57,679 bases of DNA from Nitrososphaerota archaeon (lineage in GTDB: Archaea; Thermoproteota; Nitrososphaeria; Nitrososphaerales; Gagatemarchaeaceae): assembly GCA_029785085.1 (NCBI GenBank), contig JAFMAI010000006.1, positions 1-57,679 on the forward strand, written 5' to 3'. Each line of letters begins with the position of its first letter. Position 1 is the first letter of the stretch. A model generated the notes under the pieces. The model searched no databases. It saw nothing but the letters and a program-made list of their open reading frames with translations, and was not told the origin of the DNA. The position numbers and the translations under genes are program-made. Shown here one piece after another: positions 37,752 through 57,358 of this stretch.

Positions 37752-39378
37752 CTGAGTAGCAAGGCCACATTCGCGGAGATTTCGCCCTCAGAGTTCTTTC
37801 TACCGTAACCGTGACCTGGCCGGATTCACCAACCCCGCGCGCGCCCTTTACATGGCCATCAGAGAGCTAGTCGAGAACTCCCTGGATTCTGCTGAGATGA
37901 TAGGGACGCCGCCGGACGTCTATGTCAGGATAACGCCCATGGACCCCAACCTGTCGCTCCCGGACCCGAAGCCCTACGGGCTCACCGTCATCGACAACGG
38001 CACGGGGGTGGCGCCGCAGCACGTACCAAGCGCCTTCGGGAAGGTCTTCTACGGGTCGAAGTACGTATTGAGACAGTCCCGGGGGATGTTCGGCCTGGGA
38101 GGGACCATGGCCATCCTATATGGCCAGATCACCACCAACAAGCCTGTGACGGTGACCACCTCCCCCGACGGGAAGCGCAAGTACGGCTTCCAGATGATGA
38201 TAGACATAGGGGAGAACAGGCCCACCGTCCTCAAGCGATTCAACAGCGACGCCGACGGCTCAACGGGGACCCGGGTGGACATAGTCCTAGAGGGCGACTA
38301 CCTCCGCGCGTCCCAGAAGATAGGCGACTACTTCAAGCAGACCGCCCTGGTGGCCAGCTATGCCAACCTGACATTCGTCGACCCCACCGGCCAGATAACC
38401 TACTACGAAAGGGCAACCACCACGATGCCTTCCCCTCCCAAGGAGACTCTGCCACACCCCTACGGCGTGGACGTCGAGGCGTTCAAGCGAATAGTGAAGG
38501 TGTCGGAGGAGCACGACATGAAGACGTTCATGGTCACGCACTTCCACAGAGTGGGGGACAGGATAGCGACCAAGTTCCTGGAGTTCGCAGGGGTGAACTC
38601 GAAGCTCCCTCCGAAGAGGCTCAGCACCAACCAGATAGTAGCCGTGGTGGATGCACTCCAACGTTTCCCCGACTTCCTCCAGCCCGATGCTGCCGTGCTC
38701 TCGCCCATCGGCGAGGAGATCCTCATGGCGGGCATCGCCAAGGAGCTCCAGCCCGAGTTCTCCACCGTGGTCATGCGGCCTCCCTCGTCATATTCGGGCT
38801 TCCCGTTCTTGGTCGAGGTCGGGGTGGCCTACGGAGGGAAGGTGCTGCAACCCGGGGTCAAGCTCTTCAGGTTCGCGAACCGGATCCCGCTCCTTTACGA
38901 CGAGAGCTCCGACGTCAGCTTCGAGGTCCTCAACGAGGAAGTGGACTGGCGAAGGTACCACGTCCCGTCCGACGCCCCGGTCGGCGTGATAACACACATC
39001 GCGAGCACTAGGATTCCGTACAAGACGGTCGGCAAGGAATACATCGCGGACAGGCCGGAGATCCAGAGGGAGATCAGGAACGCAGTGCGGGAGGCGCTGC
39101 GCAGGCTCGGGATCTTCCTATCCCACAAGGGGAGCATGGAAGCGGTCCAGAAGAAGATGAACATCTACGGGAAGTACCTACCTCTGATCGCCCAGTTCTC
39201 CACCGAACTGGCAGGGAAGAAATCGCTCCCGAAGTACAGGCAGCTCATAGGCAGCGAGTCTGACGGGGATGAGACTAATGAAGCCGGTCAGCCCGAGGGG
39301 GGACCGGCAGATGAAGCGGAGGGAGAAAATGTCAACCAAGAAAAAAGCGACCAAGAAGCAATCGACAGGTTCAGCTGA
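37752..39378 (+). CDS. top6B: DNA topoisomerase VI subunit B, with an N-terminal frameshift
   Basis: ATPase subunit of the type IIB topoisomerase. From ATG 37852 onward, 508 residues carry the GHKL motifs: RELVENSLDSAEM (Mg-binding Asn), VIDNGTGV, FGLGGTMA and GTRVDIVLEGDY. Family members begin earlier, and the missing part is visible upstream in two frames: SSKATFAEISPSEFF (37755-37799), then, after one extra base at 37800, YRNRDLAGFTNPARALYMA. The joined protein fits the family, so either the gene has a +1 frameshift or the sequence has a one-base error. The upstream part has no ATG, GTG or TTG; CTG at 37752 follows a strong GGAGGTGAT site. Top6A overlaps its end. Confidence 0.88.
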
Positions 39379-42025
39379 GACGAGGCAGAACACGGTCCAG
39401 GGCCTCCTCCACGAGCTGGGAGGGAGCGTCTACACCGACCTGGACGAGGGGCGCTTCCCCAGCCTGACCCTGGCCAGCCGCTCGGTCCGGAACATAGTCT
39501 ACGACAAGAAGCTGCAGCAGTTCGTGCTTGGCGCGACCACGGTGAAGAAGTCGTCGGGGAACATCAAGCACATCCGCCCGTTCACCCAGCTGGTCTGGCT
39601 CGCCTCCTTCGCAAAGAAGCTGGTGGACGAGAAGCGCACGTCCACCCTCAGAGACGTGTTCTATTCGGCCCAGGCGTTCAACGTCGAGTTCCAGGACCAG
39701 GCAGAGTCGGACGAGCTGATCACGGACCTGGAGGTCCTGATGCAGATGGCCAGGGAGGGGATGAACATCTACCCGGAGGAAAGGAGCGCCATCTTCGGGA
39801 ACATGACCATAGAATATACCGTCCCAGGCTACGAAGGGAAGACCGCTGACCTCTCGGCTAACCCCGACGGGGTGATGATCGGGCCGGCGCTCACCACAGC
39901 AGAGTTCAGAGACACTGACGCGGAGATCGTCCTTGCGATAGAGAAGGGCGGCCTTTTCACCAGGTTCATCGAGGAGAGGGTGCACCAAAAGTACAAGGCG
40001 ATACTGATCAACACCGCAGGGCAGCCCCCGAGGTCGACGCGGTTCCTCATCAGACGGCTGAACCAGGAGCTCGGCCTCCCCGTGGGGATCCTCTGCGACG
40101 CTGACCCCTGGGGGGCCCACATAGCCATGGTCATCAAGAGCGGCTCTGTTCAGAGGGACGAACCAATCATTGTCCGTGATTCGACCGGGAGGATACAGCC
40201 CGTCCCTATCGGGCAGTTCGTGGACGATTGCATAGAGAAGTACGGCTACTACTACGACTCATCAGGGAACGAGATTTGCGGTGCCATACCTTATGAAACC
40301 CTCACCGTTGATGCCGATACCAAAGTCAGATTCAAGCCTCTTTCAGCTGCGATTCGCCACAGAAACACCGGACCGCTCTACCGTCTCGTTTCATCCAGCG
40401 GGAGAACGGTCGAAGTCACCCCGAACCATAGCGTCTTTGTGCTAAGGGACGGACAGATACAACCAGTTCCGACCACGGACCTGAAGGCTGGCGAACTGCT
40501 GGTGATTGGCAGAAGCGCTTCGCGGAAGAACTGCCCGCCCGCCATGGTGAACGCGGTTTCCGAACTCTTGGGATTATCCCAGGAGGCGAAAGTACCAAGG
40601 CTGTATGTGCATCTTCCCGGCCAAGGCTCGAGACATCACTCCAGGCGGAAGCTGACGTCCTTCCGATCTGGCCTGAAGAGGCCCAATCTCTCTAGGCTGC
40701 GTTCTGCTCACATCAGTTGCCGCGAAAGCAGGAATCCTGACCGACTCCCTGCACTCATCTGGCTAACTAAGGGGTTCTCGAGACTCTTGGGGTACTACAT
40801 CTCTGAGGGGAGGGTCGTGAAATCAAAAGGAATCCCCCGCGCCGTGGAGCTCTCCTTCGGTCTGCACGAGCCTGAGGTCGTAGAAGACGCCGAACTCTGC
40901 ATCAGAGAAGCCTTCCCCGAATCCACAATCAGAAGGGTGGTCGACGTAGAAGGGAACGGGTTAAGCCTGCGTTTCGGCGGAACACCGACGGCCCTCCTCT
41001 TCCTGCGGCTCTGCGGCACCGGGTTCGCGCACAAGCACCTGCCTTCGGTCATCTTCTCCGCAAAGAAGTCTCAGGTCCTAGAGTTCCTCAAGGGCTGCTT
41101 CGGGGACGGCTACATAACAAACTCCGGGGGGGTAGTGTGGAAAATGAAGAATCCATCTATGATGTCTGAGCTCGCGTATCTCATGACGATGAACGGGATA
41201 TTCCCATCGACTGGGAAAGGGGGGGTCTCCCTGGTTGTCTCAGGTGCCTCGGAAGTTGAGAAGGTGGCGTCTACAGTGTTGCATGACAAAGACAGGGCTC
41301 TGATCCTAGCACACGTCCAGTCGACGGAGAGGAGCTCTTACCTAATGCCCAAGGCGTTTCCAGTCGTAAACACCGGTTTAGTTCATATGAAGAAGGAGAT
41401 ATACCGCCATGCTAACCACCATTCCCAATCACAGATACTGTACCGACGGATTTGCGAGGTGATTCAGCATGACCGCGAGGGTGGGACGAACCGCGAGCAC
41501 GTCATTGGGGTGCTTGCCCACATGCTGGAATGCGACCAAGCTCCCATTGAGCGGGGTTCGAGAGATCTGGCTACATCGTTGTTGAACCTTGCCGAGAGCG
41601 ACGTCGCGTTTGACCCCCTGGTCGCCATCGAGCAGACATCCAAGAAAGACGAATACGTATACGACGTCTCAGTCCCTGGCGTCGAGAGGTTCATTGGAGG
41701 CAGCTCTGGAATACTGCTTCACAACTCGGCCAACGCGGCCCACCTGAGGGAACTGACCACCCCCAACTCCAAGTGGCTCGGGGTGTACGCGAGCGACATC
41801 CAGAAGTACAAGCTCCCTTCGGACAAGCTGACCGAGGTCGACATCAAGCGGCTCTACGAGTTGAAGTCCGATCCAAGGTACACCGAGAAGATGTGGCACG
41901 ACGAGCTCGAGACATTCCTGAAGTACAAGCGGAAGAGCGAGCAGGAGGCCTTCGCCAGGTACGGCCTTAGCTACATCGTGGACACCTACCTCCCTGAGAA
42001 GCTGGAGATGATGAAGAGCTCCTGA
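39329..42025 (+). CDS. top6A: DNA topoisomerase VI subunit A containing an intein
   Basis: DNA-cleaving Spo11-like subunit. From ATG at 39329 (MSTKKKATKK, after GCGGAGGGAGAAA) the precursor is 898 residues; without the intein it is 371, the normal length. The catalytic Tyr is Y112 in TLRDVFYSAQAF, and the Toprim Mg site is D257/D259 in CDADPWGAHIA. The intein (residues 273-799) interrupts the sequence IKSG/SANAAHL, about 14 residues after the Toprim Asp pair. The C-terminal extein resumes as SANAAHLRELTTPNSKWLG, matching the family. Its start lies within the last codons of top6B, so the two subunits are coupled. Confidence 0.93.
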   Translation: MSTKKKATKKQSTGSAETRQNTVQGLLHELGGSVYTDLDEGRFPSLTLASRSVRNIVYDKKLQQFVLGATTVKKSSGNIKHIRPFTQLVWLASFAKKLVDEKRTSTLRDVFYSAQAFNVEFQDQAESDELITDLEVLMQMAREGMNIYPEERSAIFGNMTIEYTVPGYEGKTADLSANPDGVMIGPALTTAEFRDTDAEIVLAIEKGGLFTRFIEERVHQKYKAILINTAGQPPRSTRFLIRRLNQELGLPVGILCDADPWGAHIAMVIKSGSVQRDEPIIVRDSTGRIQPVPIGQFVDDCIEKYGYYYDSSGNEICGAIPYETLTVDADTKVRFKPLSAAIRHRNTGPLYRLVSSSGRTVEVTPNHSVFVLRDGQIQPVPTTDLKAGELLVIGRSASRKNCPPAMVNAVSELLGLSQEAKVPRLYVHLPGQGSRHHSRRKLTSFRSGLKRPNLSRLRSAHISCRESRNPDRLPALIWLTKGFSRLLGYYISEGRVVKSKGIPRAVELSFGLHEPEVVEDAELCIREAFPESTIRRVVDVEGNGLSLRFGGTPTALLFLRLCGTGFAHKHLPSVIFSAKKSQVLEFLKGCFGDGYITNSGGVVWKMKNPSMMSELAYLMTMNGIFPSTGKGGVSLVVSGASEVEKVASTVLHDKDRALILAHVQSTERSSYLMPKAFPVVNTGLVHMKKEIYRHANHHSQSQILYRRICEVIQHDREGGTNREHVIGVLAHMLECDQAPIERGSRDLATSLLNLAESDVAFDPLVAIEQTSKKDEYVYDVSVPGVERFIGGSSGILLHNSANAAHLRELTTPNSKWLGVYASDIQKYKLPSDKLTEVDIKRLYELKSDPRYTEKMWHDELETFLKYKRKSEQEAFARYGLSYIVDTYLPEKLEMMKSS
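40145..41725 (+). mobile_element. Intein with LAGLIDADG homing endonuclease in top6A
   Basis: 527 residues beginning Ser1 (SVQRDEPIIVRDSTG) and ending LLHN before extein Ser+1. Block B is TPNHSVFV, with His at intein residue 95. LAGLIDADG helix 1 is RLLGYYISEGR (from about residue 213) and helix 2 is FLKGCFGDGYI (from 314). Block F is EYVYDVSVPGVERF, and block G is GILLHN followed by S. All splicing residues expected of a class 1 intein appear present, with Ser rather than Cys at position 1. Codon use inside looks less G+C-rich than the flanking exteins, which suggests transfer. Confidence 0.93.
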
Positions 42026-57211: not shown

Positions 57212-57250
57212 CCGAATAATTCGGGTACTGGTTTAACACGGTAAAGCGAG

Positions 57251-57358
57251 CGGCGACGGTCGGACTCGAACCGACGGCCAATTGGTCTCTGCCTGGCGAG
57301 CTAACAGCCAATTGCTCTACCACGCTGCCCAGTCTCTGGACTTCTGAGCTACGTCGCC
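57251..57358 (-). tRNA. tRNA-Asn (GTT) with two introns
   Basis: Minus strand. Acceptor GGCGACG/CGTCGCC, discriminator G. T-arm GTCGG TTCGAGT CCGAC. Anticodon stem ATTGG/CCAAT, loop CTGTTA-A with anticodon GTT. A 15-base intron (57287-57301, GCTCGCCAGGCAGAG) follows position 37, the canonical site. A second insert of about 19 bases (about 57325-57343) splits the D-loop between GCTCAG and CGTGGTAGAGC. Removing both gives a normal 74-base tRNA. The exact D-loop intron ends may shift by a base. Confidence 0.85.

Follow-up and report, generated by a model that had tools for sequence, protein, structure and literature searches.

A mobile LAGLIDADG intein beside the Toprim acids of topoisomerase VI subunit A in Gagatemarchaeaceae archaea

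The MCM inteins a to d of Haloferacales offer a close parallel to the locus described here, as they likewise cluster at four sites of a single catalytic domain, with double occupancy and horizontal transfer (PMC10643990). Their host protein and lineage are different, and their homing was established by experiment, whereas that of the present intein (Top6A-a) is deduced from comparisons. In topoisomerase VI itself, the list of halobacterial inteins includes top6B and lacks top6A (PMC4071816); the haloarchaeal top6B intein resembles ours in that its host is the other subunit of topoisomerase VI, and differs from it in the gene. In another study, "several" Top6A/Top6B sequences contained inteins, which were removed by hand, the subunit not being given (PMC9348778), and because of this set, inteins of top6A may have been met before. 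None is named in the papers searched, in agreement with the earlier note on this DNA, which knew of inteins in archaeal top6B and of none in top6A.

In terms of architecture, the nearest relative is PI-PkoII (the Pko pol-2 intein), whose splicing domain and LAGLIDADG pair are arranged in the same order and which also has the motif LLGYY(I/V)SEG. It is the best match both in sequence (E 6e-24) and in fold (PDB 2cw7; Foldseek E 1.4e-28, TM 0.72), but it is hosted by a DNA polymerase and is only about 20% identical across the structural alignment. The best full-length profile match is the RNA polymerase A'' intein-containing family (NCBIfam NF011491, E 2e-30), which is confined to the intein part and lies far under the family's own cut-off.

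The sequence analyzed, called here the window, is a stretch of 57,679 nucleotides from a Gagatemarchaeaceae genome (G000). This family corresponds to Group I.1c of the Nitrososphaerota and includes Ca. Subgagatemarchaeum SubAcS15-57 and SubAcS15-15 (PMC10640624). According to their record titles, the relatives of the window are Nitrososphaerota MAGs from acid-mine sediments, soils, and groundwater. For the FK/YP/MAS/YF series, the acid-mine habitat is our presumption from the sample names.

The top6A gene of this archaeon almost certainly holds a LAGLIDADG homing intein of class 1 and full size (table 1). A single stop-free frame spans the whole gene, insert included. The start was chosen by homology, although an in-frame ATG is also present at 39269; counted from the chosen start, the spliced protein has 371 aa, which reproduces the length given in the earlier note. 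The identity of the host is evident from the Top6A N-domain with its catalytic Tyr, the Toprim DxD, and the adjoining top6B, whose 3′ end overlaps the start of top6A by approximately 50 bp. In the precursor, the Pfam domains TP6A_N (PF04406), Toprim (PF21180), Intein_splicing (PF14890, E 1e-18), and LAGLIDADG_3 (E 8e-6) all exceed their cut-offs, the Toprim match being split by the insert into two pieces (profile positions 2-77 and 75-170). The spliced protein matches Top6A of M. mazei (2q2e) with E 1e-64. In this alignment D257/D259 correspond to D254/D256, and the insertion site maps to G269/A270 (numbers counted from the alignment), 13 residues beyond the second Asp of the DxD. The same distance was measured in the window, close to the 14 or so residues first estimated.

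Table 1. Features of the top6B-top6A locus and the other inteins of the window genome (window coordinates, except for the last line, where contig and range are given)
Feature	Position	Strand	Evidence
top6B (subunit B), without intein; start codon putative	37756..39378	+	TIGR01052, NF003218 above cut-off
top6A (DNA topoisomerase VI subunit A); precursor with intein, 898 aa; start ATG 39329	39329..42025	+	profiles, homology
N-extein of 272 aa, with RDVFY around the catalytic Tyr (Y112 in spliced numbering) and the first Toprim half	39329..40144	+	
Toprim Asp pair D257-A258-D259, 13 residues ahead of the insertion site	40097..40105	+	sequence; alignment to 2q2e
Top6A-a intein, 527 aa, Ser1 to Asn527	40145..41725	+	profiles, break against empty relatives, alignment, fold
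Splicing block A, SVQRDEPIIVRD, Ser1 nucleophile	40145..40180	+	TIGR01445; alignment
Splicing block B core, T92-P-N-H95 (TxxH)	40418..40429	+	both residues constant across the 16 homologues
LAGLIDADG motif 1, LLGYYISEG, acid E221	40784..40810	+	profile; aligned to PI-PkoII LLGYYVSEG
LAGLIDADG motif 2, FLKGCFGDG, acid D321	41084..41110	+	alignment
Splicing block F, VYDVSVPGVERFIGG, D507	41657..41701	+	profile, alignment
Splicing block G, GILLHN, H526 and N527	41708..41725	+	TIGR01443; both invariant
C-extein, 99 aa, starting with Ser+1, SANAAHLRELTTP	41726..42022	+	
Inteins in MCM, GlmS, B-family DNA polymerase, RadA, and NuoI-like 4Fe-4S protein of the window genome	C2:1-6500, C11:118500-126500, C11:23500-30500, C6:1-8000, C15:90000-96500		hosts recognized by eye

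The insert has the complete anatomy of a class 1 intein, that is, Ser1, Ser+1, the TxxH of block B, the Asp of block F, and the terminal His-Asn, together with intein profiles and fold. The profile search for blocks A, B, F, and G, to whose outcome the earlier note had tied its proposal, gave matches above cut-off, including the NCBIfam models intein_Nterm (TIGR01445) and intein_Cterm (TIGR01443). Ser1, T92, H95, D507, H526, and N527 are invariant in the 16 aligned alleles of this site, and Ser+1 is also found in 16/16. Ser at intein position 1 is generally the less common choice. The remark made on this point at first sight holds in general, yet every copy of Top6A-a uses Ser1. Both LAGLIDADG helices are present with their acids (E221 and D321), as expected of an endonuclease of this type. 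The AlphaFold2 model of the intein, built from the alignment of the 16 alleles, reaches a pLDDT of 85.1 and a pTM of 0.82. Its structural matches after PI-PkoII are TliVMA, PI-PfuI, and other archaeal inteins, with I-DmoI also matching the endonuclease part. The boundaries and the 527-aa length are those first proposed for a full LAGLIDADG intein in this subunit.

The insertion site (site a) is IKSG/SANAA. In blastn comparisons with intein-free relatives, the alignment stops at 40144 and restarts at 41729, the relative being contiguous apart from one Ser codon. Among the 44 scored genomes of the window's family (two more, in which top6A is not readable, were left out), 20 carry an intein at site a and 24 have the site empty, so that the conserved coding site proposed from the window alone is found in related genomes in both states. 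The filled genomes include near-clones, namely G018 and G029 with the window (99.95-99.98% DNA identity, hence not independent) and G006 with G014. Chance is excluded as an explanation for the boundary because the 16 aligned homologues share the same codon boundary.

Two of the filled alleles are mini-inteins (278 aa in G034 and 313 aa in G032), in which the endonuclease domain is lost and all splicing residues are kept. In G025, the first LAGLIDADG acid is replaced by Gly (YYISGG). Outside Gagatemarchaeaceae, no filled site a was found among the matches listed when the search was widened to order and phylum, nor in the genomes followed up. In G054, G038, and G079, matches at order level that extended into the intein portion of the model were noise, as the respective frames are only 366-372 aa.

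An insert produced by assembly, or a top6A that is a pseudogene, has a negligible probability. The data do come from MAGs, and the related MAG G035 consists of two strains, with site b (see below) filled on contig C62 and empty on C139, the filled copy being frameshifted by one base in a run of A. Against this stand the identical boundaries in 16 alleles of independent studies, the long contigs, the open frames, and the very low dN/dS of the exteins.

The Ser+1 codon (window 41726-41728) is TCN in 16/16 filled alleles. In the empty alleles it is AGC in six closely related haplotypes and TCN in the rest, AGC and TCN differing by at least two bases. Either co-conversion during homing or an escape allele represented by AGC would produce this pattern. 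A comparable Ser/Pro dichotomy is known from MCM-d (PMC10643990).

The alleles of site a are filled or empty in a way that is at odds with the phylogeny of the host gene. On the extein tree, the filled/empty state has changed at least 10 times. The closest exteins to those of the window belong to G023, G004, and G025, the inteins of which group with that of G024, whereas in the intein tree the window groups with G014 and G028. In AU tests, for which the clades were picked after the trees were seen, the intein data reject the extein clade (p 0.0003), and two intein clades are in turn rejected on the extein data (p 4e-5 and 1e-58). This strong conflict indicates that the element transfers between hosts. 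The synonymous distances are in line with it: the window genome and G014 have a dS of 0.70 in the exteins and 0.38 in the intein, and with G023 the dS is 0.44 in the exteins and saturated in the intein. On these sequence distances, the intein shared with G014 appears younger than the exteins, and the exteins shared with G023 appear younger than their inteins. The dS values and the conflicting trees together indicate that closely related hosts were filled by different donors. Top6A-a, as judged from sequence comparison, is an intein that moves between hosts.

A recent transfer was also considered on the basis of the 100% identity of the intein with those of G018 and G029, and it was rejected, since the flanks are just as identical. 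In the search for a phage, plasmid, or viral carrier, only two weak and partial phage matches were found (24-33% identity). Three haloarchaeal Top6A genes are located on plasmids, all of them intein-free, and no viral contig relative was found.

The dN/dS values are 0.05-0.13 in the splicing part, 0.14-0.31 in the LAGLIDADG part, and 0.01-0.06 in the exteins, which points to strong selection on the splicing part and to weaker but clear selection on the endonuclease part. It is unlikely that the intein splices but is otherwise a decaying, vertically inherited element with an inactive endonuclease in the window genome. In close pairs, the dN/dS of the endonuclease part does exceed that of the splicing part, by a factor of about two to six, and the acid lost in G025 and the domain lost in G032 and G034 would be steps of such a decay. 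Against it, the window intein keeps both acids, its closest pair has a dN/dS below 0.2, and the trees and dS speak for transfer between hosts.

The following course is proposed. The 898-aa precursor would fold and Ser1 would carry out an N-O acyl shift at Gly272, after which the N-extein would pass to Ser+1. Asn527 would then cyclize, aided by H526, T92/H95, and D507, and the 371-aa Top6A would be released from a precursor that is presumably inactive. The excised 527-aa protein would act as an endonuclease on top6A alleles that lack the intein, cutting them at the ATCAAGAGCGGC/TCGGCCAAC junction, and repair of the cut gene would copy the intein in. Mechanistically, this is standard intein splicing; the novelty, as far as the papers searched show, lies in the host protein and in the clustering of the sites.

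One copy of top6A was found in the window genome; as this MAG is only 66% complete, it may lack a second, intein-free top6A or a gyrase that the organism has. The GyrA/ParC domain of gyrase and topoisomerase IV (PF00521) was found in 0/37 genomes searched, 20 of which are at least 90% complete, and in 12/14 control genomes. Its absence suggests that topoisomerase VI is probably the sole type II topoisomerase of these archaea and that splicing is probably needed for viability. The position of the insertion, beside the catalytic Toprim acids of the only type II topoisomerase detected, would also suit an intein adopted as a switch, which delays topoisomerase VI activity until conditions such as pH permit splicing. 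Conditional splicing is known in other archaeal inteins (PMC5790916). Nevertheless, such a role is very unlikely, as 24 empty family members, close relatives included, manage without the intein, and the patchy distribution suits a parasite.

Three more sites were found in Top6A (b, c, and d), all within Toprim. Site b (GVYA/SDI) is filled in G031, G032, G171, G181, G550 (Centralia_MAG_53), and G327, the last from a different group of the phylum; these inteins show 29-54% mutual identity and 23-26% identity to that of the window. The site-b intein of Centralia_MAG_53 has no clear LAGLIDADG acids left. Site c (TD/SDPWG), between the two catalytic Asp of the DxD, is filled in G153 and G181 with inteins that are 45% identical. 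Site d (TDCD/SYGF) is represented by G509, where it is split across two contigs; here, Ser stands in place of the usual Pro of DxDP.

In Top6B, inteins are found at RELVEN/S (G033 and G031), at THI/C (G033 and G035), and at a third site ahead of SSDVSF (G026). Mini-inteins suspected in Top6B of G037 and G053 (664 and 700 aa) were dismissed, the unmatched stretches of about 60-80 aa being too short. Double occupancy occurs in G171 (a and b), G032 (mini-a and b), G153 (a and c), and G181 (c and b), and triple occupancy in G031 (a, b, and B-a) and G033 (a, B-a, and B-b). With at least four Top6A sites around the Toprim acids, three in Top6B, and up to three inteins per enzyme in lineages with no other type II topoisomerase detected, topoisomerase VI could be regarded as a major intein hotspot of the Thermoproteota, and in some of them the control of DNA topology may require protein splicing or be gated by it; this generalization is decidedly doubtful.

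The Spo11-related subunit of topoisomerase VI joins the intein hosts, with a site beside its metal-binding acids. A single uncultured archaeal family offers a natural series of empty, full, acid-lost, domain-deleted, and doubly filled alleles, which permits comparison of homing, interference between neighboring inteins, and target-site resistance. The two mini-inteins could be used as splicing tools.

Further inteins of the window genome are listed in table 1. The one in the NuoI-like protein is located just ahead of the cluster motif CVFCGLC. Finally, a tRNA-Leu(TAG) is called at 57250-57329 (minus strand) of the window; position 27 is an odd place for its anticodon, and the call is possibly truncated or mis-scored.
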